Assembly (NCBI RefSeq): GCF_001983935.1
Contig: NZ_CP017641.1
Coordinates: 1,178,001-1,242,000 of the forward strand
DNA length: 64,000 bases
Origin: Fuerstiella marisgermanici
GTDB lineage: Bacteria; Planctomycetota; Planctomycetia; Planctomycetales; Planctomycetaceae
Direction of reading: 5' to 3'
Of this stretch, positions 25,431 through 45,366 are shown piece by piece (within the stretch, counting starts at the first letter, position 1; each line of letters starts with the position of its first letter). A program made the translations under genes and the position numbers. The notes beneath the pieces are model-generated. The model worked only from the letters and a program-made list of their open reading frames with translations. It made no database searches and was not told the DNA's origin.

Positions 25431-25529
25431 GCCACGCGAATGCGATTGGGCATGATTGCGATTGCAATCGGTCATATTCGTGCGAACGTCGCGGTAGTTT
25501 TCGCCAGTGAAGTTGGTGGCCTGGATTGC

Positions 25530-27100: not shown

Positions 27101-27456
27101 GTGACAGAAAGGAGCGCCCGTCAATTCCGTGGTCGGCAAATCCCGTCGCCGGTGGATAGCTATCAGCAAGTTCGATCGAGGTCGGCAGCACATCGACGAA
27201 CGAAAATCAGCGAGGCGTTGTTCGTGCCGGGAGCAACGAAACGCGAAAAGAGTCCTGCCCCTTCTTTCTCCTCGCGGCCATTAGAATCCGGCGCGACGTG
27301 GTCGATAAATCTACCGTAATACGGACGTAAACCCGACTTCTGGAACTAGACCACCGCTGCTCAGCGGTCGATATAGCGTAAGGGGTGGTTTCTATCAAAT
27401 TGATTTTGGTCGACGCACTTGCTAGTCACGCTGAATATAGCTGCGCCTCGAATAAG
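27101..27456. other. inter-IS fragment, no gene recognised
   Basis: About 356 bases trapped between the IS66-like element and the ISL3 element. Short frames exist on both strands but I recognise nothing. It does not look like the missing end of the tape-measure gene that lies on the far side of the ISL3 element. Confidence 0.4.
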
Positions 27457-30289: not shown

Positions 30290-30751
30290 TTAAACCTTTT
30301 TGAGCTGGTTAATGAAGATGGCTTTCGTTTTGGGAGTGATTTTTTTCACCAGCGGATCGATGATCGGCCTCGCGCGAACACGTTGTCTCAGTCGCTTCAC
30401 GGGTCCGATTTTTTGGCCGGTTTTGCGGTGTCGTCGCTGACGGAGTGCATTGGTGGTTCCGCCCTTGTTCAGCTTTGCCGCAAGGTCTGAATTCAACCCG
30501 CCCGTTGCACGCATACCGATGGCCACGGTTTTCTTGCGCGTGTCCACTTCGAACATCGCCAGCCCCTTGATTCGCCCGTGGGAGGATGGAACCTGACCCG
30601 GCTCACTGATCGCCTTTCGCGTGCGGAACATTCGTCGCAACGTGGTCCGGCCATAGCCACCAGCGCGGTAGAGTGCCGTGTTTTTCGCGCGGTCGACTTT
30701 CCGCAGAAATCGGTCTGATCGGTCGCTGATTTTTTTTGTGATGCGGGACAT
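30290..30751 (-). CDS. small phage tail-type protein (HK97 gp10-like)
   Basis: A 153-residue, strongly basic protein starting 'MSRITKKISDRSDRFLRKVDRAKNTALYRAGGYGRTTLRRMF' in pattern, and ending near a conserved 'PIIDPLVKKITPKTKAIFINQL' segment. Size, charge and position immediately before the tape-measure gene fit head-tail/tail-completion proteins of the gp10 type. The assignment rests mainly on context. It begins downstream of an intrinsic terminator on the same strand. Confidence 0.55.
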   Translation of the reverse strand: MSRITKKISDRSDRFLRKVDRAKNTALYRAGGYGRTTLRRMFRTRKAISEPGQVPSSHGRIKGLAMFEVDTRKKTVAIGMRATGGLNSDLAAKLNKGGTTNALRQRRHRKTGQKIGPVKRLRQRVRARPIIDPLVKKITPKTKAIFINQLKKV

Positions 30752-30780
30752 AACTTAGAATTGCATCGGAAGATAATTGT

Positions 30781-30822
30781 AAAAAAACAGCCGCCGCGGA
30801 ATGGATGAGTCCGGGCGGCTGT
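30781..30822 (-). terminator. intrinsic terminator
   Basis: On the minus strand ACAGCCGCC and GGCGGCTGT form a 9-bp stem with an 18-base loop, followed directly by a run of seven T. It lies between the 95-residue protein and the tail-type protein, so it would separate the two halves of the phage gene cluster. Confidence 0.8.
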
Positions 30823-30858
30823 GGCGCGTGTGACGGATCGCGACAACCGTCTCGCGCG

Positions 30859-31146
30859 TTATGTTTGGAGTTCTGAAATCGGCAACCAGCCGACGATGTC
30901 ATGCTCGCTGCTGCCATGAACCGGCACTAACTCGCGAGCGACTTCGACGCGATGTGCGCCGATATCTCTGACCATCGCTTTTATTTCAGCGTCGCCTGAA
31001 AAGGCGCAATCGACCAGCAGGTTCTGAATTGCGTCTTCGGCCGATCCTGCGCCGTCGAAATCCACGAATGGTTTTGCCGAAGCGAAGTTTCGCTCAGTAG
31101 CGGCTGCGATTAACTTTTGAAGTGTCTTCGTTTTTGCGTTGCTCAT
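30859..31146 (-). CDS. hypothetical phage-element protein
   Basis: A 95-residue acidic-to-neutral protein from ATG 31146, overlapping the end of the protease-like gene by four bases (ATGA). No motif recognised. In this position a head-tail connector or gpW-like protein would be usual in a phage, but sequence does not prove that. Confidence 0.6.
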   Translation of the reverse strand: MSNAKTKTLQKLIAAATERNFASAKPFVDFDGAGSAEDAIQNLLVDCAFSGDAEIKAMVRDIGAHRVEVARELVPVHGSSEHDIVGWLPISELQT

Positions 31147-32285
31147 GCTTCGTCCCGCTCCGAAATATGGAATTGTGCAACCTTGTTCTTCCGATCGGAA
31201 TTTGCGCCAAGTCCGGTGAAACTCGTTTCTCGCCAAGCAAAATCGTGCGCGACTAAACACGGACCCACGATTCGCTGGTTGTTGACGACTTTCACTTTCC
31301 CCGGCTTGATGAAGCTGAGCCGTGACCAGTCACCACGAACGCTGGCTTGCCATTTGTGCGAACTAATTTCATTGCCGGGAACAAATGATGAATACACTTC
31401 TCTTGCGGCTGGTGAGTCAATGGTGAATCGCCCCTGAATCGCATGCAGCATTCCGCTCTTTTTGTCGATCTGGGCTGTGTGCGTGCCGACTCTTTTTGCT
31501 GGAGAGTGGTCCAGCAGAGTCGGTTGTGACTCATGCTCAACGCTCGCTGTGTTGACATCGATAGCGATGGGATAAGGCAGGTGCGGCTGGTCAATTTTAC
31601 CGCCGTTGTACGCGGCAAGTGCGGCGTATTGCAGTCGGTCGCGAGCGAATTGGAAATCGACAACCGGCCTCGCAGGTGTGGCAACTTCGGCGACGGGTTC
31701 ATTGAACGACGCGGCAACATTCCGTGGCTTGGATTGCAGTAACTGCTCGGCGACTTCGTCTTCAGTGAGTAATCGCTCGATGTAGTCACAACTGGCGTGA
31801 ATTGCAAAGTCTGATTCATCGTCGACTCTCAGCTTCGCGATCGCTTCTCGCAATACAGCGCGACGACTACCGCCGTGATTCAACGCGGTCTGGACTCCAC
31901 TGTGCTGGCTGAAGCACGCGAGGATACCGCCCTCCACAAGCTGCCTCGGAACTTGCTGAAGCTGCTCGCGGAACGTCTTGACCTTCGCAGCTCGCTCCTG
32001 CAGCATACTGATGATGTGATAAGGAACGCGGTCACGCGGCGGCGAATTATCGGCGGCGATCGTCTTGCGTCGCGCGGCACCTTCGCGGCGGCGTTGCTCC
32101 TCTTCCTGCTGCCAACGACGCTCGCGAGCTTCAGCGAATGCTTCGGCCTCACGTTGCTCAGCACGGCGTTGGCTCGCCTCAATTTGATAAGCCTGCTGAT
32201 CCAGAAGACGCTGATCTGCCGGTGCGATTTTGAAACCTGTCGGCGATTCAGGGCAATCAATTTTTCGCGGATATAAGAGCGACAT
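31143..32285 (-). CDS. prohead-protease-like phage protein
   Basis: About 380 residues from ATG 32285 (an upstream GTG-type start to 32348 is less likely). The N-terminal third is a Glu/Arg/Gln-rich coiled coil, possibly a scaffold. The C-terminal region resembles phage prohead proteases: 'LLDHSPAKRVGTH' could hold the catalytic His, 'HKWQASV' the catalytic Ser, and 'AWRETSFTGLGANSD' matches the conserved end 'EvSfv-GAn'. In most phages the major capsid gene follows, but here a 95-residue gene follows instead. Family call moderate. Confidence 0.58.
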   Translation of the reverse strand: MSLLYPRKIDCPESPTGFKIAPADQRLLDQQAYQIEASQRRAEQREAEAFAEARERRWQQEEEQRRREGAARRKTIAADNSPPRDRVPYHIISMLQERAAKVKTFREQLQQVPRQLVEGGILACFSQHSGVQTALNHGGSRRAVLREAIAKLRVDDESDFAIHASCDYIERLLTEDEVAEQLLQSKPRNVAASFNEPVAEVATPARPVVDFQFARDRLQYAALAAYNGGKIDQPHLPYPIAIDVNTASVEHESQPTLLDHSPAKRVGTHTAQIDKKSGMLHAIQGRFTIDSPAAREVYSSFVPGNEISSHKWQASVRGDWSRLSFIKPGKVKVVNNQRIVGPCLVAHDFAWRETSFTGLGANSDRKNKVAQFHISERDEA

Positions 32286-32338
32286 TGATAACACTCCGTT
32301 ACGTCGGAAGCTGTAGAACCGTGGTGATGCGAAGCGAA

Positions 32339-33226
32339 TCAGGACCATCGTCGGGCATTGATGGACACTTTCGGGAGTTCATGCGGGGCTGCTTGTGGGA
32401 CGAATAAGCCCGTTGCCGGATCGAGCCAACTCGTGAGCAGATCAAGCCGCTCGCGGATTTGGTCGGCCAACAGTTTCGCGGCCTGCCCTTGCTGTAATGC
32501 CGCCTGCATGTTTACCTCAGCCGATTCGATGCGGCTTGCGATCGACTCGGCTGATGCACCCTGATCCATCTTGGCCGTCGTAGGCGATCCATTACGAAGC
32601 GACTCAAGATCGGCCTGCAGACGCTGACCTTCCTGAATGCGACGACCAGCCAGGCTATTCAGCTTCTGAAACCAGTGTTGAGCACCGAAATTCTTGCCGC
32701 CATCGTCGACGAAATCTGCGTATTCGCTCGGAATTGCCTCACGCTCCGGCTCCGGAATGCGATCGATCAGCTCTCGCTGGTTGTCGTGGACCTGATACGC
32801 ATGCCGCGCGTCTGACAGTCGGGATTCGATTGGCGCGGTGACGGCTTCCAACTCCTCGACAAGCTGGTCGATTTGGCTGCCATGTTGATCGCGTTGAGCC
32901 AAGATGCCGGGAAGACGGGATCGCTCGGAATCGCGATGAGAGATGGCTTTGGCCCGTGCGACATCCTTCAGGAAATCGCGTTCATTTTTTCCAAGATGTT
33001 GAAGGAGGCTGCCAAACTGGTCCGGCGTGATCGGTGGTTGGCTCCCCGTCGCCTCGGCCTTGACCGTCGACGCATAGACCTTCGTCGCCTCCATTCGATC
33101 CCGTGACTTCGCAGCCTGCGCCCGTTGCAGAAAGCTCAGGCTCTGTTGCTGCGGCTGCGATGCGTCCTGAATTGAGGATGCTGCTGGCACTGCTGTTGTT
33201 GCTGTTTCTGTCATCATTCTTGTCAT
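32339..33226 (-). CDS. coiled-coil hypothetical phage-element protein
   Basis: A 295-residue protein, Gln/Ala-rich and mostly helical, with predicted coiled coil over about residues 85-260. No motif recognised. Its first 82 codons overlap the end of the upstream HTH gene in another frame. ATG 33094 would shorten but not remove the overlap. Its position before the protease-like gene would suit a scaffold or portal-associated protein, but that is a guess. Confidence 0.6.
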   Translation of the reverse strand: MTRMMTETATTAVPAASSIQDASQPQQQSLSFLQRAQAAKSRDRMEATKVYASTVKAEATGSQPPITPDQFGSLLQHLGKNERDFLKDVARAKAISHRDSERSRLPGILAQRDQHGSQIDQLVEELEAVTAPIESRLSDARHAYQVHDNQRELIDRIPEPEREAIPSEYADFVDDGGKNFGAQHWFQKLNSLAGRRIQEGQRLQADLESLRNGSPTTAKMDQGASAESIASRIESAEVNMQAALQQGQAAKLLADQIRERLDLLTSWLDPATGLFVPQAAPHELPKVSINARRWS

Positions 33227-33536
33227 CCATTTTCTGTCTGGTTATCTGAACTTCGCGCGGCTCATCACCGTCGCCATCAACGGCAATCCGCCCCCCGCGG
33301 CCACCCTCATATGTAGTCACATCGACTACATCATCACCACCATCATCATCGCCACAATCACCGTCCAGAATTGCGGTGATGTCACTCTGATAATAGCGAC
33401 GCACACCACCGGGCAATTTGACGGCGCGCAGGATCTGTTGGTCGACCCAATTCACCAGACACTGCGTGGTGACACTCAGCATTTTGGCCGCTTGGCTTGG
33501 ACGGATCAGGCAATCTGTAGGGCTTGTAGTAGTCAT
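32982..33536 (-). CDS. helix-turn-helix (MerR/excisionase-like) protein with Asp/Asn-rich tail
   Basis: About 184 residues from ATG 33536. Residues 1-50 look like a winged helix of the MerR/excisionase class ('IRPSQAAKMLSVTTQCLVNWVDQQILRAVKLPGGVRRYYQSD'). The rest is low-complexity and rich in Asp, Gly and Asn. The last 245 bases overlap the next gene in another frame, so either this tail or the start of the next gene may be untranslated. Could be a regulator of the downstream genes. Confidence 0.6.
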   Translation of the reverse strand: MTTTSPTDCLIRPSQAAKMLSVTTQCLVNWVDQQILRAVKLPGGVRRYYQSDITAILDGDCGDDDGGDDVVDVTTYEGGRGGRIAVDGDGDEPREVQITRQKMDDKNDDRNSNNSSASSILNSGRIAAAATEPELSATGAGCEVTGSNGGDEGLCVDGQGRGDGEPTTDHAGPVWQPPSTSWKK

Positions 33537-34565
33537 GATGACAACAATCGCATGTTGCGGGTTTGATGTCAATGTAGCAGGTTGGGGAAAGTGCGAAGTT
33601 TTTGCGAATTGGCTGCCAGATTGGCGTATTGGGCAGCGAAAAGGCTGGCGAAATCGGGGTTGAGTGGGGAAGGAATTCAGTCGGGTTGGGTTGCGGGATG
33701 TGTGGATTCGGCAGGAATTTGGTGTTTTGTGGTGTGGGGCTTGGGTGAGATTGAGGCTGTGGTGTCGCGAATGTGGTGCGGTTGCGTGGGTAGTGTAGTC
33801 GCTATGACTTCCGTGGTGATTTGCTGGAAGGCGATGTGCGTGGCGGCGCGATAGCATTCAGGCGGCGACGTGGCGGCATGGCGGCGACGTGGAAAAACGC
33901 TGGAGTTTTGCCGCTTTCCGGTGTGAGTGACGATTGTGAGGGTCAGGACGGCGGTCAGATTTCTCGTGAGCTTCGCGAGAATGGCCCTGTAATTGCCTGA
34001 GTCCGATCTCGGCGTGGTGGGTTGCGACTGGGTCGATTTCAGGCCCTCAGATCGCCTGTGAGGCGTCCGAAGCCGAAGTGAATGCGGCTGGAGATGGCTG
34101 TGGCAGCCAAGATTTGGGCAACCTTCAGACCTTTGAAATGATGTAAGTGTTGTGCTGGCAACGACTTAGATATACCAGACACGACCCAATACCCCGCCTC
34201 TTCCGCTGGGTAGGCTGAGCGCGGGGTGGGGTGCCCGGAGTACCTTTTCCCTGCAGCCTCCCCCCAGGGTGGTCTCGGGTCGGTCGGCGGCGGCGTCAGC
34301 GGCAGCCGTGGGTGGTGCTGACAGATCGCCGTCCGATGACGGAATGACACCCGTGACGCTTTCGCGCCAACCCCGCCTAGTTAGCACTTATATTGCGTGT
34401 CTTCTACGTATTCTTTTCTTCTTTTCTCTCCCCTCCCTTCAATATAAAATAAAGTGTCATAAGAGTCATAGAGATGGATTGGCTAGGGAAAACACTGGTC
34501 CCGACCGATGACAGATTTTGCCGAAATGGCCGTCATGATAACGGTAGAATCCGTCACGATCACAA
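33537..34565. other. 1-kb gene-free gap within the phage-like element
   Basis: No believable gene on either strand. It holds an AT-rich stretch (about 34381-34470) that stands out from the GC-rich surroundings and contains repeated GTCATA-type words (GTCATAAGAGTCATAGAG). As the gap separates the replication gene from the structural genes, it may hold a promoter for the latter or a replication origin. Confidence 0.5.
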
Positions 34566-37154
34566 TTAGAACCCTCGACGTTTGTTAAAGTCGTCACCTT
34601 CCTGTTTCAGGATTCTGTCTTCCACGTCGCAGTGCTCAAAAGAAGTGACACCATTCCATCCAATGCCGCGCATCTTCGAATTACGTGCATCGTGCATTCT
34701 GGTCACGTGTCCGGCGTCGATCATGCGGTTAAGGTCTCGCTTCATTTTTGAGGTTCCTACGCGCCTTCCCACAACGTTTTCAAACCACTCGGTCGCGACG
34801 TCGTTAGGGATCAAAATGATGTCGGTCTCGGGCAAGTATCCCAGTTCACTCAGCTTCTCGTCGAAGTAGCTTTCTACATCGCCCGATTCCTTGAAATCGA
34901 CGTCCATGCCTCCTTGTCGGGACGCGATTACCTGAAGAACGTCACCGGCACCTTCCAGCCGCTTCAGGACGCCACGATCCCAAGAATCGAACCGCGTACT
35001 GCCTGAGACGTCCTGCACCGGCCTTTGTAGCTCAGCAATACAGTCTTCAAGGATGTCCCAGAGATGCTCTCGAATGAAGCTCCGGACGCTCTCTGTATAG
35101 TCGTCGCGTCGTTTTGGCATTCGGATCTGAATAGGAATCGCTCTGGTCGAAATGTCTCGGCTCATACTCGGGCCATTTACTGTCAAGATCCAATTCAGAT
35201 TGTTCTGCCTGCTGGATTCACCGACGTTGTTTTGCCGACCAGAAATCGTTTCCAGCGTGATGACCGATTCCAGTTCGTCGTGGCTGAATCGACCGGACTT
35301 CACATTGTCGATCAGCACGACTCTCTTCGCCCGGCCTTCCGACGACAGCAACCTCGCGCCGAATTTGTCGAAGTCTTGCCGCTCGGACCACTTCAGGAAG
35401 CCGCCGACCAGCAGAGACACGTTTTGCGCGAGTGATGTTTTACCAGCGTTGCGGTCTGGCGATGAGATCACAAACAATGGCCGCTGTCCGTACTCGATCC
35501 CCGAAACCAAAGTGCAGATCATGCTTTTGATTAGCGTACGATCTGCGTCTGTTGCTGGCAAAAAATAGTCGAGCATCTTTTCCAGATGCGAGCCATCGCC
35601 GGTCTCCAGTTCACGATGCGCGTAATACACGTCCGCTTGCTGCGGAAATTCTGGAAACGTTTCGACACGAGAAAATTCCTCCGACTCGAATATCAGATGC
35701 TGATAGAACTCTTCTTTAGTGTGAAGAAATGAATCCCGCTTGAAGTGAGGCGGCGCGTTCATTCGGCTGCCGATCCATGCGAATAACTGATGGGGCGATT
35801 CGAGGAATCGAACATCCTCATCGCCCTCGTGGACGAATAGTCTTCCTCTGGTCACCTTGGGCCAACCGCCAGTCGCTGCATGCAGGTTCTCTTTAATTTC
35901 CTGTAATGACAGCGGCGTGGTAACCACGGTTTCCTTGCCATCCCCTCCATCCTCTTTGGTGGTTTCGGTCTCATGGTTGGCGAGCGGTTCCCCGCGAGAT
36001 ACTACAGTCGTCGCTTGCTCAGCGGTCTCGGGGTATTCCGCAGACCGATCGGGCAATGACACCAACTTTTGCAGTAGCTCATTCCGATCGCGCCGCTCAT
36101 AGAATTCGCACCAGTCGGCAGCATCATCTTTCGATTGGATGTCGTCGGCGAATTCGGGGTCGTCGGCGAACTTACGAACTTCAATTGCCGATTGCGGACA
36201 CTGTTGCCTCAGAAGCCGGATAACCCGCTTCGCGAAATTCTCTCCGGATTCGTCGTTGTCCGGAAGGATGACGATTCTCAAGCCATTAAGCGGACGCCAA
36301 TCTGTTTTCTGGGGCGACTTGGCACCGTTGGATGGCGAGACGGACAGAACACCTAAGACTCTCAGAGCGGCAGCGGCTTTCTCGCCCTCGTTTACGTAGA
36401 CTGTTTTTCGGCTGGTGATCTCAGGCAAACCTGTCAGGAAAGCCCTGCCTCCCGACGGCAGGGGCTTTTTGATTTCTGTATCCAAGACGTCCAGCAACCC
36501 ATAAAGCGGCCGATTATCCTTAATCATTAGGCACTGCCAGCCATCATCTTTGACGCGAGTGACCTGGCGGTAGGTTTTGTCGCGACCACCGTCAGCCGTT
36601 GTAAAGTTATAGCGACAGACGATGCAGGCAACGGAACCATCCGCGTAGAAATACGTGTACGTCTTGTGGGGTAACGATTCGGCTTCCGGCAGAGTGCCGC
36701 TTTTTTGCAAAGACCAGCCGAGTGCGGCAAAAGCTTTGCCAACCGTCTTGTGTACTTTTTTTCCGGCGACTGGATCGGGCGCAGGATCGCTGTCGTGCTC
36801 AGCTCGCTTCCGCGATGGTCCAGCCGTCGCTTGGGGCAGCTGCTTATTTCTCGCCACGGATGTTGTTGTGGTCCGTGGTGGTTGCGGCTGGCCACAGTCG
36901 GATCCCGCTTCGCTGCTGTAGTCGTGAAACAGTTGCGACATCTTAACGCCGAGTGCTTCACAGATTGCTTCCGTGCTGCAGCCGCCGGAAAAGCAGTCCA
37001 TCACCACACCGCGGTCTCCATCAGTGAAGCTGAAGCGATTTTTTCCGCAGCTGGGGCATCGCGTAACGTAGCCACTGCCCTCTTGCTTGATGTGTTGTCC
37101 GGATTCAGGATGAGCAGCAACGACTTCTTGAAAGTGCTGGAACGCGGGATACAT
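34566..37154 (-). CDS. primase-helicase (zinc finger, TOPRIM, P-loop ATPase)
   Basis: About 862 residues from ATG 37154. An N-terminal CHC2-type zinc finger ('TRCPSCGKNRF...DCFSGGC', residues about 32-60) is followed by a low-complexity linker, a TOPRIM domain (about 245-325; 'VYVNEGEKAAAALR', 'IVILPDNDESGENFA') and a P-loop ATPase (about 515-700; Walker A 'SSPDRNAGKTSLAQ', Walker B-like 'RVVLIDNV', arginine in 'DISTRAIPIQIRM'). It should prime and unwind DNA to replicate the element after excision. One of the clearest genes here. Confidence 0.85.
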   Translation of the reverse strand: MYPAFQHFQEVVAAHPESGQHIKQEGSGYVTRCPSCGKNRFSFTDGDRGVVMDCFSGGCSTEAICEALGVKMSQLFHDYSSEAGSDCGQPQPPRTTTTSVARNKQLPQATAGPSRKRAEHDSDPAPDPVAGKKVHKTVGKAFAALGWSLQKSGTLPEAESLPHKTYTYFYADGSVACIVCRYNFTTADGGRDKTYRQVTRVKDDGWQCLMIKDNRPLYGLLDVLDTEIKKPLPSGGRAFLTGLPEITSRKTVYVNEGEKAAAALRVLGVLSVSPSNGAKSPQKTDWRPLNGLRIVILPDNDESGENFAKRVIRLLRQQCPQSAIEVRKFADDPEFADDIQSKDDAADWCEFYERRDRNELLQKLVSLPDRSAEYPETAEQATTVVSRGEPLANHETETTKEDGGDGKETVVTTPLSLQEIKENLHAATGGWPKVTRGRLFVHEGDEDVRFLESPHQLFAWIGSRMNAPPHFKRDSFLHTKEEFYQHLIFESEEFSRVETFPEFPQQADVYYAHRELETGDGSHLEKMLDYFLPATDADRTLIKSMICTLVSGIEYGQRPLFVISSPDRNAGKTSLAQNVSLLVGGFLKWSERQDFDKFGARLLSSEGRAKRVVLIDNVKSGRFSHDELESVITLETISGRQNNVGESSRQNNLNWILTVNGPSMSRDISTRAIPIQIRMPKRRDDYTESVRSFIREHLWDILEDCIAELQRPVQDVSGSTRFDSWDRGVLKRLEGAGDVLQVIASRQGGMDVDFKESGDVESYFDEKLSELGYLPETDIILIPNDVATEWFENVVGRRVGTSKMKRDLNRMIDAGHVTRMHDARNSKMRGIGWNGVTSFEHCDVEDRILKQEGDDFNKRRGF

Positions 37155-37329
37155 TTTCAACTCCGTATGTGCGGATCGCCGTGAGCGATTTCCGTTTGCT
37201 TGGATTGTTCATTTTCGCTTGGCTTTCATTCGTGAGGCTTGGCATTGGTTCTTTGACCTATTCCATTCGCGATTCGCAGCGGTTCCACCGTGCGTTGTCA
37301 GTGAGGCGTGACCCTGTCACGCTTTCGCG

Positions 37330-37779
37330 TCAGATGTCGCCTTCGTTTCCCGGCAGCTCGACCAGCGACATACACACCCTTCCTGTCGCATGGTCTTCGA
37401 GCACGACAGCGAACCGGACGCGGCACGATTGGCAGGCAATGAACGTCCTCACTGTGATCGACGAAGGCACTTCGTGAAAATCCGCGTGGCCTACAGACTT
37501 GATCTGCTGTTCGTTGAGGACGGCGCTGAAATGATCGGTCGCAATGTCACCGGAAAATGCTTCCAGCTTTACGCTGTCGCAGCACGGGCAGCAGAGATAT
37601 TGGCCGTCCGTTTCGAGCGGGTGGACTGGCAATCCGATCCTGTTGGCGAGCTTCTGCAGCTCAAACCACGGATGTTCGGTTGTGGAATCGGCGGCGGCCA
37701 AAATCTGGCCGCTGATCGGCAGGTTGTGGAATCGAGCGATTGATTCCAACGCAAGTTGCTGTAGAGTTGCAATATCCAT
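37330..37779 (-). CDS. zinc-ribbon-like hypothetical protein
   Basis: A 149-residue protein with a cysteine set resembling a split zinc ribbon: 'YLCCPCCDSVKLE' near residue 62 and 'FIACQSCRVRF' near residue 114. The N-terminal half is helical. Function unknown; similar small zinc proteins often sit by phage replication genes. It precedes the primase gene by about 175 bases on the same strand. Confidence 0.65.
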   Translation of the reverse strand: MDIATLQQLALESIARFHNLPISGQILAAADSTTEHPWFELQKLANRIGLPVHPLETDGQYLCCPCCDSVKLEAFSGDIATDHFSAVLNEQQIKSVGHADFHEVPSSITVRTFIACQSCRVRFAVVLEDHATGRVCMSLVELPGNEGDI

Positions 37780-37816
37780 CGCGAATCCATTTCCGTTTCG
37801 TCTTGGTGATTCATGG

Positions 37817-37861
37817 AAACTCGCTCCTCTGCTTAGCTGGCGTTGGGGGCGAGTTTTTTTT
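37817..37861 (+). terminator. possible intrinsic terminator (+ strand)
   Basis: AAACTCGC and GCGAGTTT can pair around a 24-base loop, followed by a run of T, giving terminator geometry on the plus strand only. All annotated genes nearby are on the minus strand, so it would stop antisense transcription; it may be fortuitous. Confidence 0.4.
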
Positions 37862-37872
37862 GTGCGCGGCTG

Positions 37873-38115
37873 TCAACAGTCGTCATACAATCGCGCCAAC
37901 AAATGCCGCACCTGCTTTCGCAGGTGATTGATTTGCCGTTGTTGACTGTCGATGCGTTCGCGAAGCTGTTGGCGCTCGGCAGCGGCCTGAATGAGAGCGT
38001 GGCGTAGATCGGCTGCGGTATGGACGTTGGGTGATCGCCGCGGTGGTGGCGGTGTGACTGGGCGGTTTGGATCGGGTGTCCGTGTCGGTGGGGGTTGTGG
38101 TTGTTTGGTGGTCAT
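37873..38115 (-). CDS. small proline-rich coiled-coil protein
   Basis: An 80-residue protein from ATG 38115, which overlaps the previous stop as ATGA. The N-terminal half is Pro/Thr-rich; the C-terminal half is a Gln/Arg/Leu-rich helix likely to form a coiled coil. No family recognised. Confidence 0.55.
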   Translation of the reverse strand: MTTKQPQPPPTRTPDPNRPVTPPPPRRSPNVHTAADLRHALIQAAAERQQLRERIDSQQRQINHLRKQVRHLLARLYDDC

Positions 38116-38690
38116 GGCGCGTCCTTCGCAGTGAGCTTTGATTGACAGTCTCTCCAGCATGACTCAGCGAATGATTGAAGGCTGACTGACGGGTGGTCGG
38201 CGGCGGCGGGTTGAATATCAGCCCATGTGCGATTGCGACGAATGTCGCTAACCGTGGAATGATGCACGCCGTATGTGGCGGCAATCTCGCGATTCGAAGC
38301 ACCTTCAAGAATCTGACGCTTGGCAATACTGACTTGCAGCCTGCGGAATGTTGTTGCACTTGAGTTTCGAATATTTTCCGCCTGCGATAGCCACCGGCAG
38401 TTGTCTTTACAGTAATCCCCGTTGCCGTCGCGGCGGTCGAGTTGATACCGCTTCGATGGACGTTCGCCCATATCGCGAAGGAAGCACTGAAAGCCAGTCA
38501 ACACTCCGTCACCTTCCCGCCATTCAGGGCAGACGCGAATCCCACGGCGTCCGTAGTCGCGGTATCCCTTAGCACGTTTGTTGGTGCAACGTTGGACCAT
38601 GCCACGCCACACTGAGTAGAGCGGATGTTGCAGGCATGGCTTGCCGTTGATCAGGATTGCGTTGCGACTGTAGTTTCGAGCGGAAACCAT
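38112..38690 (-). CDS. HNH-like nuclease with C-terminal HTH
   Basis: About 192 residues from ATG 38690, with AAAGGG a dozen bases before it; a TTG at 38723 is less likely. The central block 'YQLDRRDGNGDYCKDNCRWLS' is the pattern seen in phage HNH/AP2-type homing proteins. The C-terminal 'REIAATYGVHHSTVSDIRRNRTW' is a helix-turn-helix. The fold suggests a homing endonuclease-like or DNA-binding role. It overlaps the next gene by four bases. Confidence 0.7.
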   Translation of the reverse strand: MVSARNYSRNAILINGKPCLQHPLYSVWRGMVQRCTNKRAKGYRDYGRRGIRVCPEWREGDGVLTGFQCFLRDMGERPSKRYQLDRRDGNGDYCKDNCRWLSQAENIRNSSATTFRRLQVSIAKRQILEGASNREIAATYGVHHSTVSDIRRNRTWADIQPAAADHPSVSLQSFAESCWRDCQSKLTAKDAP

Positions 38691-38719
38691 TAGAAGAATC
38701 CCTTTCAGTGCGTCGCGAC

Positions 38720-38980
38720 TCAATGCGAAAACGCATTTTCAGGTTTCTTCCTCGATCGTCTTAGCCTTGCGTGCCGCTTCGCGTCGGTAACTGCACGACT
38801 GCGTTCCCAGTCAAGCAAGGCGGCGTCGGACGTTCGGTACACGGCACGGTCTGATGTGCTGTCCGCAATGTTAATGCAGTCGATTTCACCATTACGGAAA
38901 AGCGTTCGTACCCGGGGATCTGAGATGCCATAGCGTTCCGCCACGAACTGAACGCTTCTGTTGTATTTAACGCTTGCCAT
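38720..38980 (-). CDS. small HTH protein, excisionase-like
   Basis: An 86-residue basic protein from ATG 38980. Residues about 8-40 ('VQFVAERYGISDPRVRTLFRNGEIDCINI') fit the winged helix of excisionase/MerR-like proteins that recognise one short site, with the sequence-reading 'RAVYRTSDAALLDWE' after it. It lies two genes from the integrase, where an excisionase is expected. Confidence 0.65.
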   Translation of the reverse strand: MASVKYNRSVQFVAERYGISDPRVRTLFRNGEIDCINIADSTSDRAVYRTSDAALLDWERSRAVTDAKRHARLRRSRKKPENAFSH

Positions 38981-39068
38981 TGGAAGCCTCTCCAGCAAAG
39001 GAAGTAATAGAGCTTCAGCACAATGACAACTCAGCAAGTGAATCCTCTACGTCAACACAGCCTGACTC

Positions 39069-39099
39069 GCGAATCAGGCAATCAGGCTGCCTGATTCGC
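39069..39099. terminator. strong hairpin between minus-strand genes
   Basis: GCGAATCAGGCA, a seven-base loop, and TGCCTGATTCGC form a perfect 12-bp stem. On the plus strand a short T4 run follows about 13 bases later; on the minus strand there is none. It lies just downstream of the 39.1-39.7 kb gene and may be a terminator, a processing site or an operator. Confidence 0.5.
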
Positions 39100-39113
39100 C
39101 TGCGCAGGCTGTT

Positions 39114-39668
39114 TTAGTCCGATTCTGGGTGCGTGATTTGCTTCACGATCGCCTTAATGTCAGCCAGCAGACTCTTATCTAACGGCACTGTGATTTTGTC
39201 GAGAATCTGTTTATTCTTCGGAAACTCAGTACCGCCAATCTCCCGGACAGCAGCAACCACGGCTTCGACTTGTCTCAGGCTGAAAACCCGATCGCCAGTG
39301 CGGTTTACTTGTGGCGGTGGCACCACTTCCCGCGGCGCTATATCAGCCTGTGATTCAATAGCAACGCTTGCAGCAAGCGAGCTGACAGCAGCTCGACATT
39401 CATCCATGCTGCGGCTTCCATTCACGCTGAAGAATGGCTGTGGGGCAATCAACTCATGCCCAGTCTTCGCATTCACTACGCGAATGGCTGCGCCAACCGT
39501 GTGGCATCGCCGAACAGCGGCTTCTTCCTCCCACAAGCCACTAAACGGTTCGCCGTGCGTGTCGTTAAATGCGTCAACGGCTTCTTTGATGTCGGCGAAC
39601 ATTTTCTGCCGATCATCCCAGCTCTCAGCGAGTAGAGTAATTCGTTCTAGCTCGGTTGGTTGGTCCAT
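39114..39668 (-). CDS. hypothetical phage-element protein
   Basis: A 184-residue, mostly helical protein from ATG 39668. A central segment ('AAIRVVNAKTGHELIAPQPFFSVNGSRSMDE') looks like a compact beta-rich domain. No motif recognised. It lies between the integrase and the small HTH gene. Confidence 0.6.
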   Translation of the reverse strand: MDQPTELERITLLAESWDDRQKMFADIKEAVDAFNDTHGEPFSGLWEEEAAVRRCHTVGAAIRVVNAKTGHELIAPQPFFSVNGSRSMDECRAAVSSLAASVAIESQADIAPREVVPPPQVNRTGDRVFSLRQVEAVVAAVREIGGTEFPKNKQILDKITVPLDKSLLADIKAIVKQITHPESD

Positions 39669-39780
39669 CGTCTTCACCCTCTGGTGCGAGAGTCTGGAGT
39701 TTTGAAAACGCGGGGAAAGCCAGTCCAGAGTTCTGGCCTTGTCGGGAGCTACCCTATCCCCACGCGATTCAAACGATCAC

Positions 39781-41124
39781 TCAGTCGCTAAATAGCCAAT
39801 CATGCACGTGTTCGCTGATCTTGATCAACGCATCATCGTTCGCCTCATGGATGTATGATTGCGTTGTGCCGCTTCCCGACGGCGTGTGACCAATCGTCAG
39901 TTGCACGCATTCAATTGGCACGCCCGGCGTCTTGTGTGCAACAGTCGTGTAGGTGTGACGAAAACATCTCCAGCCGCTTTCGAGTTTCGGGTTCCGCACG
40001 AATAGACCACGCTTAACTAACTTGTCCTTCAACCTGCCAAATGCCTGAGCGAGTGCGTCAGCCTTTTCGTTCCGTTCGTTGCGGAGTCTGGCCGTTGCGA
40101 AGATGATCGTGTTTCCGCATTCGTTGCATTCGGAATCGCTGTCGCCTTTGATGGTGACAATCTCACCACATGATTCGCACTTTGTTTCAGCAACCAGCTT
40201 CGGGTTATTTAGCGGCTTCCCAGCACGATTCAGGATCAGCCGATTGAACTCGTTTGGTTGTGCGCGAACTTCGTTAATGGCCTCAACTGTTTCGTCCCAC
40301 AGCCACGCGCGACGCTCGGTAAGTTTCTTCTTTCGGAAGTTATCAAGCCACCGGCCTTCAAGGTCTTCAGGCTCAAGGTCACTCACGTCGATGGTGTACT
40401 GCCCACAGTTGGCAGCAAGATGGATGGCGGCGCGAAGTTCAGGATTCGCGTGCGACATCATCGCTCGAATTTCCTGCGGCGTGAACAGTCTGGTTTTCTT
40501 CCTGACTGCCTTCAGTTGTTTCGCCTGCAGTTGCTTAAAACTGGAACCGAAGTTCGGCGGCTTGAATGGCGGGCAATCATCTGAAGACAACCCAAATTTG
40601 AAAATGCCGCGTATCAGGCGAACGTGGCAATCAACAACAGAATCGCTCGGCTTCCGACCTTTTACTTTCGCGAAGTCGCCGCTGACAATTCGACTCATCA
40701 GACCGTCAAAGTCGGAGCTTCGCAGACTCACAACAGCACGGTCCCCGAATGCTCGCGTCAGTATCTCAGCGGCTGTTAAATGCTGTTCCAGCGTCTGAGG
40801 ATGCAGGCCGTACTTTTTGCCAAGCCGTGGTGTCTTGAACTGCGTTCGCTTTGAAAGAATGAACCAGTCCACCAGCTCGGCAACTGTGAAGACATCAGCA
40901 GCCTCACGTTCCTGCCGTGGTGACTGAATTTGAGCTTCGATATAGTGCAGATCTTCGTGATATCGTTGTAGTGCAACTCTCCAGTCTGAACCAAACGAAT
41001 ACTGCTTTCCTTTGATCTTCTTTACCCACGCACCGCTTCCCTTGTGCCAGTTCAGAACGAAGTCTGATGGTGCGTCGACCGGCCTTTTCTTGGTCTTGTT
41101 TTTTCTGACTGGCTTGGCTTTCAT
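39781..41124 (-). CDS. int: tyrosine recombinase / integrase with zinc-ribbon insert
   Basis: About 447 residues from ATG 41124; an upstream frame to 41196 would translate the GGGTGATGTAA repeats and is unlikely. There is an N-terminal arm-binding-type domain, a SAM-like core (about 80-200), then the catalytic domain with box II 'WRCFRHTYTTVAH', 'LTIGH' and the likely nucleophile Tyr in 'QSYIHEA'. The box I region reads 'AANCGQYTIDVSDLEPEDL', where the usual catalytic Arg is not seen. A zinc ribbon (CESC ... CNEC, about residues 335-360) is inserted between boxes I and II. It should recombine the tRNA-Leu attachment site next to it. Confidence 0.85.
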   Translation of the reverse strand: MKAKPVRKNKTKKRPVDAPSDFVLNWHKGSGAWVKKIKGKQYSFGSDWRVALQRYHEDLHYIEAQIQSPRQEREAADVFTVAELVDWFILSKRTQFKTPRLGKKYGLHPQTLEQHLTAAEILTRAFGDRAVVSLRSSDFDGLMSRIVSGDFAKVKGRKPSDSVVDCHVRLIRGIFKFGLSSDDCPPFKPPNFGSSFKQLQAKQLKAVRKKTRLFTPQEIRAMMSHANPELRAAIHLAANCGQYTIDVSDLEPEDLEGRWLDNFRKKKLTERRAWLWDETVEAINEVRAQPNEFNRLILNRAGKPLNNPKLVAETKCESCGEIVTIKGDSDSECNECGNTIIFATARLRNERNEKADALAQAFGRLKDKLVKRGLFVRNPKLESGWRCFRHTYTTVAHKTPGVPIECVQLTIGHTPSGSGTTQSYIHEANDDALIKISEHVHDWLFSD

Positions 41125-41148: not shown

Positions 41149-41180
41149 TGGTGATGCGGGTGATGTAATGGGTGATGTAA
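41149..41180 (+). repeat. GGGTGATGTAA direct repeats, candidate integrase arm sites (left)
   Basis: GGGTGATGTAA occurs at 41158-41168 and 41170-41180, with a weaker unit (TGGTGATGC) just before, all spaced 12 bases. They lie between the integrase start and the tRNA-Leu fragment, where arm-type binding sites are expected. Confidence 0.65.
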
Positions 41181-41234
41181 CCACACTCACGGCCAATTCG
41201 AAGGATAAAAAGCAGGGTTTTCAGCGTCAACATC

Positions 41235-41293
41235 GCAGACTTAAAATCTGGGGTTCCAAACGGAGCGTGCGGGTTCAAGTCCCGCCCGGGGTA
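41235..41293 (+). other. attachment site: 3' fragment of tRNA-Leu(UAA)
   Basis: The segment carries an anticodon arm with the loop CTTAAAA (anticodon UAA), a variable arm that can pair GTTCC with GGAGC, a T-arm GCGGGTTCAAGTCCCGC, and the 3' acceptor CCGGGGT plus discriminator A. No matching 5' half (an ACCCCGG- or GCCCCGG-type acceptor strand and D-arm) precedes it. A 3' tRNA piece beside an integrase is the usual sign of a phage or island att core. It encodes no CCA and cannot give a mature tRNA. Confidence 0.8.
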
Positions 41294-41408
41294 ATGAAAC
41301 ACCAGTAAAAAATTGGCGAAATCGACCACCTTGCTAGTTTATGGCAAATGTGGCTGCGACATCCGAGTTTCAGCAGTTTTCCTAAGTCACTGCAAGTTTA
41401 CTGAAGTT

Positions 41409-41472
41409 GGGTGGTGTAAGACCGCCAGTGGGTGGTGTAAAGCTGCCGGGTGGTGTAATTCGGGTGGTGTAA
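41409..41472 (+). repeat. GGGTGGTGTAA direct repeats, candidate arm sites (right)
   Basis: Four perfect copies of GGGTGGTGTAA at 41409, 41430, 41448 and 41462, all in the same orientation as the related GGGTGATGTAA pair on the other side of the tRNA fragment. Together they frame the att core asymmetrically, like the P and P' arms of an integrase site. Confidence 0.7.
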
Positions 41473-41870
41473 ACTTGCTCCAACGGTCGGATCAAATCTC
41501 GGTATCCGCTTATTTCGCACCAACACCCATCTTTCCCACCCGCCTCAAACGCCTCACAGAACGCGGTTCGCATCTTGGTCGCGGTGTACCGATCACGTCC
41601 GGCAATCGCCGTCATGCCACCGCAAGCCCTCGCTGCCCTTCGTGCCTGGAAACTCACCAGCGGCCTGAGCTTGTCCGCCTGATGCAGTGGACGGAATTTC
41701 TTGGTGGCTTCGCAGATCGAGTTCGACGCTTCCGTGGCGGTGGGCTGCCCCCGAGATTAGGTCCGGTTGTTATGAGAGTTGTGGGCTGACATTGGTATTG
41801 AATAATCTTCCAAACAAGTTGTGCTGAGCCCCGTCCGCCTTCGCTGTCGCCTCGGCCTTCAACGCGGAGC
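41473..41870. other. gene-free stretch between att region and IS3 remnant
   Basis: About 400 bases. Short frames are present on both strands; none is recognisable. It links the candidate arm-site cluster to the IS3 remnant. Confidence 0.4.
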
Positions 41871-42016
41871 TCAGGTCGAGGTGATGGCGAAGGTGGTCGG
41901 GGCGGCTCCCGTCTGTCGAGCTCGAACCGAAGGCTGCGCGGCCGCAAACTCGTTCGGAGTCTGGTAGTCCAACGCGCTGTGCGGACGAACTTCGTTGTAC
42001 AACCTCACGTACCGAT
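41871..42016 (-). pseudogene. IS3 family transposase OrfB, C-terminal remnant
   Basis: Complement reading gives 'YVRLYNEVRPHSALDYQTPNEFAA', the C-terminal signature of IS3/IS407-type OrfB, then a 24-residue tail and stop at 41871. The frame is cut at about 42016, where the recombinase cassette begins. It differs in its flanking residues from the OrfB at 44.6-45.4 kb ('FEYIEVFYN'), so it comes from a different IS3 element. Confidence 0.75.
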
Positions 42017-42373
42017 ACCCATGTTACCGAGGCAGTAGTTCGGTATCGATGGCACCCTTGGTTTGATCAGCCCGTCACGATTGATCGAGCGATCGTACGT
42101 CGTGATCGCGGAGCTGTCTATTTGTGTCGTCCTGCCGACGTGACGGACGGAAAGTTTCGTGAAGTTCCGCAGTGGATGTTGAATCAGTCTGTATGCTGCG
42201 TCATGCAGCTACGCGACGAACCCTGCGTTTCAATATCAGCACTATTGAATCTTTCAGCACTGCTGCGGGACGCCACAGCGGGCGATGAGTTTCTGATAGA
42301 TGTTCAGCATTTCCAATCTTCTCAGGGAGATGCTGATGCCACAACCCAGAACGAAACCGACAACACAGCTTGA
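42014..42373 (+). CDS. recombinase-associated conserved protein, start unclear
   Basis: The frame is open from the IS3 junction and reads 'VVRYRWHPWFDQPVTIDRA...VYLCRPADV...REVPQWMLNQSVCCVM...SISALLNLSALL', a pattern I know from small proteins encoded just upstream of large serine recombinases. The core starts only about ten codons after the junction and there is no ATG, GTG or TTG in frame before 42122, so the true start seems to have been lost or lies in the fused IS3 sequence. The 3' end overlaps the next small gene. Confidence 0.6.
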   Translation, partial: DTHVTEAVVRYRWHPWFDQPVTIDRAIVRRDRGAVYLCRPADVTDGKFREVPQWMLNQSVCCVMQLRDEPCVSISALLNLSALLRDATAGDEFLIDVQHFQSSQGDADATTQNETDNTA

Positions 42374-42515
42374 TCTGTTTGAAGTGAGTCCGCCCCGGCC
42401 GCGATGGAGTGATCTGCCCAGCGAGACTCGGGAAGAAGCGACCCGATATCTGGCGGAACTCGTTCGTCATCATGCTGAAAATCTCAACAGCGGAAAGGAG
42501 TCCGAAGATGAGTGA
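42336..42515 (+). CDS. small recombinase-associated protein
   Basis: A 59-residue acidic protein from ATG 42336, 'MPQPRTKPTTQLDLFEV' at the start and a helix with HH near the end. It overlaps the preceding frame and overlaps the recombinase gene by eight bases. Gene order and overlaps indicate one operon. Function unknown. Confidence 0.6.
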   Translation: MPQPRTKPTTQLDLFEVSPPRPRWSDLPSETREEATRYLAELVRHHAENLNSGKESEDE

Positions 42516-44583
42516 AAAGATTGAAGCCATCCATCTTCAGCGGAAAGCCGTTCTTTACATTCGTCAGTCGTCGCCGTTTCAGGTGCTTCACAACGAAGAA
42601 AGCCGCAGGCTGCAGTATGCCATGCAGCAACGGATGCGTTCACTGGGATGGAAAGACATTGAAGTCATCGATGAAGATCTGGGGCGCAGCGCGTCCGGCA
42701 GCGTTGTTCGATCGGGATTTGAACGCATGGTCGCCGATGTGTGCCTCGGGAAGATCGGGGCCGTTGCTGCACGAGAGGTGTCGCGGTTTGCTCGCAACAG
42801 TCGTGAATGGCAGCAACTGGTTGAAGTTTGTCGAGTCGTCGACACGTTACTCATCGATCAGGAAACGGTCTACGCTCCTCGCCGGAGCAATGACCGACTG
42901 TTGCTGGGACTGAAAGGAAGTTTGAACGAATACGAGCTGGACCTCCTTCGTCAGCGATCCGTAGAAGCTCGGCGTGAAAAGGCGCGCCGAGGAGAACTGA
43001 TCATTTCGGCACCGGTCGGATATCTGAAAACGGGAACGACTCGAGGCAAAGATCAGCGCATTGAGAAAGACCCGAATACTCGCGTGCAGCAGATGATCAA
43101 TCTGGTGTTTCGCAAGTGCTTCGAACTGGGGAGTGCGAGGCAAGCTCTGATGTGGCTTCTGGAAGAAGATCTCCAGATGCCGGCGCGAGACAAAGCCGGA
43201 GTCCTGAAGTGGAAGCGTCCGACATACGGGATGGTGTACCAGATCCTGACTCATCCGGTGTACGGTGGGGCGTATGCGTATGGCCGAACCGAACATCAGC
43301 CATCGTATGAAGGTGGATTTATCGATTCAAAAACACGGCGGCGCAGTCGCGAAGAATGGATCGCATTGATTCCCGAACATCACGAAGGCTATGTATCGTG
43401 GGAGGAGTTCGAACGATTGCAGGATTTGATTTCGTCAAACAATCTGCGTTCCGGGCGAGGCGCTGCTCGAAAAGGTTCGGCACTGTTGTCGGGAATGCTG
43501 GGCTGTCAACAATGTGGACGCCGGCTGGCCGTCGCGTACAGCGGAGTCGGAGCGAAAGTGCCGCGATACTGCTGTCATCGAGGGTATCTGGATAACGGCG
43601 AAGCCAAGTGCATCGCATTCGGTGCTACTTCCGTTGACATCGCCGTAGCAGAACAGATATTCCGTGTTGTTGCTCCTGCCGCTCAAGAGGCCGCCATGCT
43701 CGCTCACCAGCAAACAACCGAACGTGACAACGAAGTTCTCAAGGCACTGGAAGGTGAACTCAAGTCTGCTCGTTACGAAGCATCGCGTGCGCAACGTCAA
43801 TTCGATGCAGCTGACCCGGAAAATCGACTTGTCACCGAGGAACTGGAACGACGATGGAATGCGTCGATGCAACACGTCAGTGACATCGAAGAGCGCATGG
43901 ATCAGCAACGAAATGATAGATCTTCAATCGACGATCCTGATTTGCAGGGTCTGATGGCAGTCGTGGCTGACCTTGACGCAGTCTGGAACAATCCTGATGC
44001 TGACATTCGAATCAAGAAACGCATCGTTCGGACTCTGATCCGCGATATCGTTGCGGATGTCGACAACGACGTGAGCGAAGTCATTCTTACAATCCACTGG
44101 GTTGGTGGTGTGCATACCGAACTGCGACTTCCCCGCCGTCGTCGCGGAAAATCGACAGCCACGTCAGCAGAGGCCGTCGATGCTGTCCGGTCACTCGCAC
44201 GAATCTGTTCCGACGATCTCATCGCCGGACTGCTCAACCGCAACGGGTTACCAACGGGACGAGGAAACCGGTGGACTCGAGAGCGGGTCACATCGATGCG
44301 GAACTACCACAAGATTGCCCGCTGGACTGCACAGGCTCAATCTGATCAAGGCTGGATGAACCTAACCGACAGCGCAAAACATCTTGGCATCAGCACGCGG
44401 ACACTCAGACTGGCGATTGAACGAGCCGATATCAAAGGTCAACACCCGCTTCCGGACGGACCGTGGATCATCAATCGCAGCGAACTGGAGACGCCAGCGG
44501 CAAAGGCCGTTGTCCGGAAGGCAAAAACTCGAAACCGCAACCCCGCGGTACCAGATCCCAAACAGCAATCCCTTGAGTTTTAA
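42508..44583 (+). CDS. large serine recombinase
   Basis: A 691-residue recombinase from ATG 42508 with GGAAAGGAG upstream. The resolvase domain has the nucleophile Ser20 in 'LYIRQSSPFQV', 'EVIDEDLGRSASG' and 'REVSRFARNSREW'. The recombinase domain follows, then a zinc beta-ribbon (CQQCGRR...YCCHRG...KC, about 330-370), a long coiled coil (about 395-500) and a C-terminal HTH ('NLTDSAKHLGISTRTLRLAIERADI'). It probably mobilises the cassette that contains it. Confidence 0.92.
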   Translation: MSEKIEAIHLQRKAVLYIRQSSPFQVLHNEESRRLQYAMQQRMRSLGWKDIEVIDEDLGRSASGSVVRSGFERMVADVCLGKIGAVAAREVSRFARNSREWQQLVEVCRVVDTLLIDQETVYAPRRSNDRLLLGLKGSLNEYELDLLRQRSVEARREKARRGELIISAPVGYLKTGTTRGKDQRIEKDPNTRVQQMINLVFRKCFELGSARQALMWLLEEDLQMPARDKAGVLKWKRPTYGMVYQILTHPVYGGAYAYGRTEHQPSYEGGFIDSKTRRRSREEWIALIPEHHEGYVSWEEFERLQDLISSNNLRSGRGAARKGSALLSGMLGCQQCGRRLAVAYSGVGAKVPRYCCHRGYLDNGEAKCIAFGATSVDIAVAEQIFRVVAPAAQEAAMLAHQQTTERDNEVLKALEGELKSARYEASRAQRQFDAADPENRLVTEELERRWNASMQHVSDIEERMDQQRNDRSSIDDPDLQGLMAVVADLDAVWNNPDADIRIKKRIVRTLIRDIVADVDNDVSEVILTIHWVGGVHTELRLPRRRRGKSTATSAEAVDAVRSLARICSDDLIAGLLNRNGLPTGRGNRWTRERVTSMRNYHKIARWTAQAQSDQGWMNLTDSAKHLGISTRTLRLAIERADIKGQHPLPDGPWIINRSELETPAAKAVVRKAKTRNRNPAVPDPKQQSLEF

Positions 44584-45366
44584 CTCAAATAGAACAAAGG
44601 TGCATAATGAAACACAGTTGTAGAACACTTCGATGTATTCGAAGATGCTCGCCCGAGCTTCCGCCTGATCCGCATACTCGCACTGATGAACCAGCTCCTT
44701 CTTCAACGTGGCGAAGAAACTCTCCGCCACGGCATTGTCCCAGCAGTTGCCTTTGCGACTCATGCTGCATTCGATTCGATTGCGACGCAGCGCTGACCGA
44801 AATGCATGACTGCAATACTGACTGCCGCGATCCGAATGATGAGTTAGCCCCGACACATCGCCGCGACGCCCCAACGCCATTTCCAATGCCGACAAAAACA
44901 CGTCCGTCGACATCGTGACATCCATCGACCAGCCGACCACTTTACGTGAGTGCAGATCAATGATCGCCACCAGATAAAGCCAGCCGGATTTCGTCGGAAT
45001 GTACGTCAGGTCGGACACCCAGACGTCATTCGCCTGATCACGTTCAAACTCTCTGTTCACAGTGTTTTCTGCCACCGCAAGGTCATGGTTCGAGTCCGTC
45101 GTGCGAACGCGAAAACGACGATGAGTCGATGCCGACACGCCTTCCTGACGCATCAATTTTGCAACCGTCGCTTCACAGATTTCAAAGCCACGTGACACCA
45201 GTTCCTGGTGCATCCGAGGACTCCCGCAAACGTCTTTGTGACGCTCCGAATGAATCTGGCGAATTTCCGAAATCACCGCCGACTGATACTTCGAACGAGC
45301 ACTCATCGGACGCTTCCGCCACGCATAAAACCCGCTGCGCCTCACCTGCAGCACGTCACACATCAA
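44362..45366 (-). pseudogene. IS3 family transposase OrfB, 3'-truncated
   Basis: The rve/DDE core is complete: 'VWVSDLTYIPTK', 'THHSDRGSQYCS', 'WDNAVAESFFATLKKE'. OrfB homology runs to 'FEYIEVFYN' at 44617, after which the frame passes through the end of the recombinase cassette to a stop at 44362, replacing the usual C-terminal HSALGY-type block. It is in the -1 frame relative to OrfA; an AAAAG motif right before the OrfA stop is a plausible slippage site. The copy should be inactive because of the missing end. Confidence 0.82.

Follow-up and report, generated by a model that had tools for sequence, protein, structure and literature searches.

In the planctomycete Fuerstiella marisgermanici, our analyses make it likely that a displaced tRNA-Leu(UAA) fragment in the window (the whole stretch of 64,000 nucleotides analysed here, positions 1,178,001 to 1,242,000 of contig NZ_CP017641.1) marks the attR of a prophage, referred to as prophage A, beside a P' arm that remains from an earlier, related element, referred to as B, the two having been stacked at one tRNA-Leu(UAA) gene, and that prophage A was later split by recombination between copies of an ISL3-family insertion sequence (IS).

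The fragment adjoins a tyrosine integrase gene and is flanked by six GGGTGRTGTAA words, two containing GATG (GGGTGATGTAA) on the integrase side and four containing GGTG (GGGTGGTGTAA) on the far side, all on the + strand and exactly where the original prediction had placed them (Table 1). Exact matches to GGGTGRTGTAA numbered 11 in the whole genome (11 forward and none reverse) against three for a reversed-pattern control, and ten of these 11 copies were gathered in two tRNA-Leu clusters, six in the window and four after an intact tRNA-Leu(UAA), so that their clustering cannot be attributed to chance. A lone GGGTGGTGTAA at genome position 6480702 had no second word in 220 bases there, and ARAGORN found no tRNA in the surrounding stretch. 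Among 170 family genomes, a pair of the words within 24 bp was present in one, the source genome itself (seven matches, none for the control). ARAGORN found no complete tRNA in the window. The fragment had a single other copy at E <= 0.001 in the 8.92-Mb genome, at 2352209-2352266, which falls inside an intact tRNA-Leu(UAA) recognized by ARAGORN at 1.13 Mb from the window site. Identity between the two reaches 91% over 58 bp, including 17 identical bp in the anticodon arm, rather than being absent, the outcome that had been named as contrary to an attachment core.

Table 1. Features at and around the displaced tRNA-Leu(UAA) fragment. Positions refer to the window unless another locus is named.
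Feature	Position	Strand	Basis
IS66-family element next to nadA	25529..27100	+	DDE_Tnp_IS66 E 8.7e-20; NadA E 2e-102
ISL3-family IS, 1295 bp; left flank AATAAGTT, right flank AAAGATCG, no matching duplication	27459..28753	+	DDE_Tnp_ISL3 E 2.8e-73
Prophage A tape-measure gene, N-terminal part, truncated at ISL3	28754..30283	-	phrog_1533 E 1.7e-80
C-terminal part of the tape-measure gene	L116:14-1579	-	phrog_1535 E 1.1e-5
Remainder of prophage A within the window: weak matches to head genes, primase, HNH endonuclease, small HTH gene, unknowns	30290..39677	-	
Tyrosine integrase of prophage A, 447 aa from ATG	39781..41124	-	phrog_216 E 3.7e-6; relatives 24-31% identity
P arm (as read here): two GGGTGATGTAA (41158, 41170), starts 12 bp apart, between integrase start codon and core	41158..41180	+	12-bp repeat in 12/17 relatives
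att core: displaced 3' part of tRNA-Leu(UAA), anticodon arm to 3' end	41235..41293	+	match to intact tRNA-Leu(UAA)
Four GGGTGGTGTAA (41409, 41430, 41448, 41462), read as P' arm of second element B	41409..41472	+	words, alignment, controls
Stub of the element-end gene attributed to B, C-terminal part, running towards the core	41518..41740	-	no family match
~260-bp repeat, then serine-recombinase unit, ending the stub	41740..44622	+	

The integrase gene stands at the element end and adjoins the core, as in an attR. Its product gave only weak zinc-ribbon-like Pfam matches that fell below the cut-offs, and the integrases of the same family encoded beside tRNA genes share 24-31% identity with it. 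Three relatives were returned by one search, two from Rhodopirellula loci and one from a Clostridia bacterium, and none of the 10 stretches that matched the pattern in viral_contigs proved to be a relative. No paper on this integrase family appeared among the literature matches listed, as judged by title and abstract start. The catalytic part of the prophage A integrase contains an inserted stretch with four cysteines (CESCG...CNECG) at residues ~309-349; by eye, a similar Cys-rich insert occurs in just one (L102) of the other 16 aligned integrases. The canonical first catalytic arginine of tyrosine integrases lies in the motif TGxR. By eye, the 17 aligned integrases all lack an Arg at this site, many of them reading NCGFGxxD, and in L103 and L112 an Arg is seen some three residues after the canonical position.

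Seventeen related integrase loci were examined for their surroundings, comprising 15 of 24 listed places (the window integrase excluded) together with L116 and L025, with L026 and L027 left out of the counts. In 12 of these loci, an intact tRNA (Leu, Arg, Ser, Met or SeC, as recognized by ARAGORN) lies past the integrase start with its 5' end facing the integrase. By eye, L104 and L105 have the 3' part alone of a tRNA-Leu-like sequence in this place, like the window, while L102 has a reversed tRNA 5' half, L025 an intact tRNA in the opposite direction and L110 no tRNA. A direct repeat of at least seven exact bases with a spacing of exactly 12 bp was found in the interval between integrase and tRNA at 12 of the 17 loci; 200 mononucleotide shuffles gave a mean of 0.14 of 17 at this spacing and at most two of 17 at any spacing between 8 and 30. 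The spacing was 11 in L104 and L105 and 13 in L064, and L102 and L025 had no repeat at the spacings tested. We read the 12-bp-spaced GGGTGATGTAA pair as the P arm of prophage A, i.e. as putative arm-type sites, integrase binding being predicted purely from position, spacing and recurrence. The repeat pair also turned up in 15 viral contigs, which were taken as unrelated: none gave a significant integrase match (best E 0.30), and a tRNA was present in the available stretch of one of the 15.

To see both ends of such elements, the distal tRNA half was sought in 13 of them and found in four, i.e. L116 (tRNA-Arg) and L064 (tRNA-SeC) in the source genome, L113 in genome G005 (tRNA-Ser) and L108 in genome G105 (tRNA-Arg); the remaining nine showed the tRNA alone in the sequence available, which often stopped soon after. 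One of these four controls, L116, is also the holder of the moved segment and of the second two-armed tRNA half described below. The far ends of all four carry a copy of 37-42 bases of the tRNA 5' half, which indicates that these elements restore the 5' half; they supply it, and probably also the promoter, to the rebuilt tRNA. Taking as arm word eight bases with one mismatch allowed, all four controls have the word twice on the P side, plus a head-to-head pair on the P' side that starts 83-131 bp past the half, with a 7-bp core word that is the same on both sides. On the B' side, i.e. beyond the tRNA at the integrase side, no arm word occurs within 400 bp in any of the four (~0.3 expected by chance), so that the integrase side follows a rule of one arm per end, as the original prediction had presumed for an integrated element. 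Ahead of the distal half, on the B side, three arm-word matches were present in L116 and none in L064, L113 and L108. The P' arms of the controls (head-to-head pairs) differ from that at the window site (four direct copies), and the controls are therefore not of the same sub-type as the site.

Given these patterns, it is highly improbable that the words have nothing to do with integration and are regulatory or simple repeats that happen to lie near a tRNA. Such an explanation could appeal to the many and closely placed copies on the far side and to an arm function predicted from sequence alone, but it leaves unaccounted for both the excess of the 12-bp-spaced repeat between integrase and tRNA among the relatives over its shuffled expectation and the recurrence of the 7-bp core word at the far end of every control.

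The intact tRNA-Leu(UAA) is followed by four GGGTGATGTAA copies, 11-mers identical to the P-arm words, with the integrase 1.13 Mb away. The window site is a true att end, the attR of prophage A, made up of integrase, P arm and displaced tRNA 3' half, and the distant intact tRNA-Leu(UAA) with its four GGGTGATGTAA is the corresponding attL. The two ends are not contiguous in the assembly, and their partnership was recognized through a ring of ISL3 copies and a split tape-measure gene. The genes behind the integrase are phage-like, coding for an HNH endonuclease, a primase, weak matches to head genes and a tape-measure protein. The idea that the element had not been inserted through this site is contradicted by these results, its attL having been located on a segment of 46.5 kb whose present position is 1.1 Mb away.

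Nineteen ISL3 copies were examined, a lower bound on their number in the genome as the best 40 of 76 candidates were scored. Eleven have exact 8-bp target duplications, and in two more the duplicates differ at a single base. Flanks are exchanged in a closed ring among three of the mismatched copies, being AATAAGTT/AAAGATCG in the window, AAAGATCG/ACTTTTTT at 2361582 and ACTTTTTT/AATAAGTT at 2313753. The mismatched copies L169 and L178 have no partner, and L166 shares the left flank of the window copy, which would also fit the right flank of the copy at 2313753, its own right flank being partnerless. Two split genes follow the same pattern. The C-terminal part of the tape-measure gene starts at the left side of the ISL3 at 2361582, 9.3 kb past the intact tRNA-Leu, and it runs in the same direction as the N-terminal part in the window, the common 8 bp being read in one frame. 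Similarly, the other two flanks of the ring are two parts of one gene of a tRNA-Arg prophage, a gene that matched no PHROGs family and has a head gene (phrog_4523) nearby; of its prophage A homologue, residues 6-263 match one flank (41%) and residues 263-394 the other (32%). From the permuted duplications and the two split genes, we infer that a segment of 46,534 bp (2315048-2361581) once lay between the flanks of the window ISL3. This segment carries the tRNA-Leu and the left part of prophage A and is now found inside the tRNA-Arg prophage. Prophage A thus amounts to ~21.9 kb, 9.3 kb at the tRNA-Leu locus and 12.5 kb in the window.

The same assignment of att ends, and likewise the tandem interpretation developed below, would be compatible with a 1.1-Mb separation that is an assembly error at the three near-identical ISL3 copies, the real chromosome keeping the tRNA-Leu segment next to the window ISL3. 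We hold this to be rather unlikely, while giving it appreciable weight. One piece joined wrongly would be enough to produce these permuted duplications, and some support for the original order comes from the related genome G015, where part of the moved segment is found at a distance of 4.4 kb from nadA, the relative orientation being the same; against it, the genome is one contig and the ISL3 measures 1.3 kb, and repeats of this length are usually spanned by long reads. On the whole, the synteny evidence for relocation is mixed. Weak matches to the moved segment are found in G014 on the opposite side of nadA, homologues of the right-hand sulfatase and methyltransferase genes of the window lie within ~16 kb of nadA in G018, and no tRNA was found in the 19.9-kb stretches beside nadA in G018, G015 and G014, the proposed order placing the tRNA ~40 kb away. 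The synteny in G018 had suggested that a prophage block moved into the interval between nadA and the sulfatase genes, which was rejected because the ISL3 flanks show that the tRNA segment is what was displaced relative to the window.

Beyond the core, positions 41294-41622 align with the stretch past the intact tRNA-Leu, in both cases with the tRNA end, a spacer, four repeats and a gene stub that is 75% identical (41518-41622) to the same place there. Since the homologous stretch at the tRNA-Leu is the end of prophage A, 41294-41622 is probably the end of a related element, B. The arm words are distinguished by one base, GGTG in all four far-side words vs GATG in all six words of prophage A, a difference that might have arisen by drift in a single element. 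By eye, the displaced 3' half retains its stem pairs and departs from the restored half in the variable arm, as would be predicted for halves derived from separate elements. Most likely, the four GGTG words and the stub to ~41740 are the P' arm of an older element related to prophage A, left as a tandem scar; four GGGTGGTGTAA and a homologous end-gene stub are found past the displaced core here, and the equivalent is absent in all four controls. Of the options raised by the original prediction, the arrangement accordingly points to the tandem one, with arms and a stub of a second element past the core, and the suggestion that sequence beyond 41.3 kb is also element DNA was borne out as far as ~41740 by homology to the prophage A end at the tRNA-Leu.

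The evidence for B consists of the four repeats and ~450 bp. Searches with the end-gene stub gave no relatives in viral_contigs (103 stretches) and no families in PHROGs or, for the open reading frame over the stub, in Pfam. Neither a body nor an integrase of B was found beside the stub, which ends at ~41740 in a repeat and a serine-recombinase unit, and B is therefore claimed as a scar and not as an intact tandem element. A search of the genome for integrases yielded only two others, each beside its own tRNA.

Both arms around one core could alternatively represent the whole attP of one element, if a circular prophage genome had been inserted by other means than its own integrase, P and P' together, with IS recombination or the nearby serine recombinase as the inserting agent. 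This scenario would agree with the IS elements and serine recombinase that flank the site on either side, and with the fact that the two arm words are one base apart. We nevertheless consider it improbable, as prophage A has its P' end at the intact tRNA-Leu, a locus that the ISL3 ring and the split tape-measure gene connect with the window part, and as the words differ across the core in all copies (GATG twice, GGTG four times) whereas the 7-bp word is the same on both sides in all four controls. The whole attP of a single element, as previously suggested, is thus probably not what the site contains: its far-side words are off by one base, and those of the partner attL are identical to the P-arm words. 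The serine recombinase was rejected as the agent that inserted the prophage, given that its unit is present at six or more other places in the genome.

Returning to prophage A and a tandem scar of B, the simplest history places B first, A second and the loss of B afterwards. B would have integrated first, leaving its P' arm and end gene downstream of the tRNA. As the anatomy of the site suggests, prophage A would then have integrated through a crossover in the anticodon arm, supplying the 3' half that rebuilt the tRNA and displacing the previous 3' half to the integrase end, between the P arm of A and the P' arm of B. Later, recombination between ISL3 copies would have excised the 46.5-kb segment with the tRNA, the P' arm of A and its left part, and this segment would have ended up at an ISL3 in another prophage, 1.1 Mb away, presumably as an event in the cell rather than in the assembly. 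B would have been lost save for the arm and the stub beside the core.

Another displaced tRNA half in the source genome, the 5' half of a tRNA-Arg (L149, 11180-11380), is likewise flanked by arm words on either side. At this displaced tRNA-Arg half of L116, the related words AGGTGTCG and GGGTGTCC stand 12 bp apart at 60-72 bp before the half, which is followed by the P' pair of L116; by eye, no obvious integrase was found among the open reading frames listed to its left. This is the same picture as at the tRNA-Leu site, i.e. a displaced half with arms on both sides.

Other mobile elements surround the region. The IS66 element, 358 bp and the ISL3 form a block of 3225 bp that occurs at two places with 99.9% identity (window 25529-28753 and genome 3527566-3530790). 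The serine-recombinase unit, of ~2.6 kb with a small upstream open reading frame, has at least seven copies in the genome at 97-100% identity, a lower bound obtained by scoring the best 40 of 54 candidates; it is found once more behind the ~260-bp repeat, at genome position 7145106, and looks like an independent mobile element. In four draft genomes of the same genus (L059, L060, L061 and L062), the sequence downstream of tRNA-Leu(UAA) differs among all four, and three of these contigs stop within ~240 bp of the tRNA, as if this gene were a frequent insertion site.

Our results account for what looks like a whole chromosomal attP without invoking any new mechanism, and show that the matching of arm words combined with permuted IS target duplications can recover the ends of a prophage now 1.1 Mb apart. 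More tentatively, and with somewhat less than even confidence, we suggest that these integrases form a diverged bacterial family with a readable arm code, in which each integrase would have its own word of 7-8 bp, usually present as a 12-bp-spaced pair between integrase and tRNA and repeated on the P' side, and in which a crossover in the anticodon arm would let some members restore the 3' half of the tRNA and others the 5' half, thereby taking over the tRNA promoter. If so, arm words could be used to date and match att ends, and stacked insertions could be distinguished even after the loss of an element.

The relocation of segments by homologous recombination between copies of one IS is a general mechanism, and the present case shares with it the permuted target duplications among copies of one IS, differing from the usual event in that a prophage and its tRNA target were split and the segment landed in a second prophage. 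Tandem integration at one locus is mentioned in a review on archaeal integrases (PMC8371274). In common with tandem (accreted) elements at one tRNA gene, the site has a displaced tRNA half between two element ends, but here the second element consists of an arm and a gene stub only, and the end with the intact tRNA is 1.1 Mb away. According to a published description (PMC10865867), mycobacteriophages Boilgate and Fionnbharth have a lambda-like attP with its core in a tRNA gene and putative arm-type sites on both sides; the core in a tRNA gene and the putative sites on both sides are shared, in contrast to the 12-bp spacing of arm words across a diverged family and to arms that flank a displaced chromosomal core, as found here. 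Unlike the pTN3-like archaeal integrases (PMC8371274, section 18), prophage A restores the 3' half, the usual way, and its relatives are bacterial; restoration of the 5' half is seldom encountered in bacteria according to the same section of that review. The arrangement described here is therefore of a kind already known, the 12-bp arm spacing and the 5'-half restoration of the family being its less ordinary traits.
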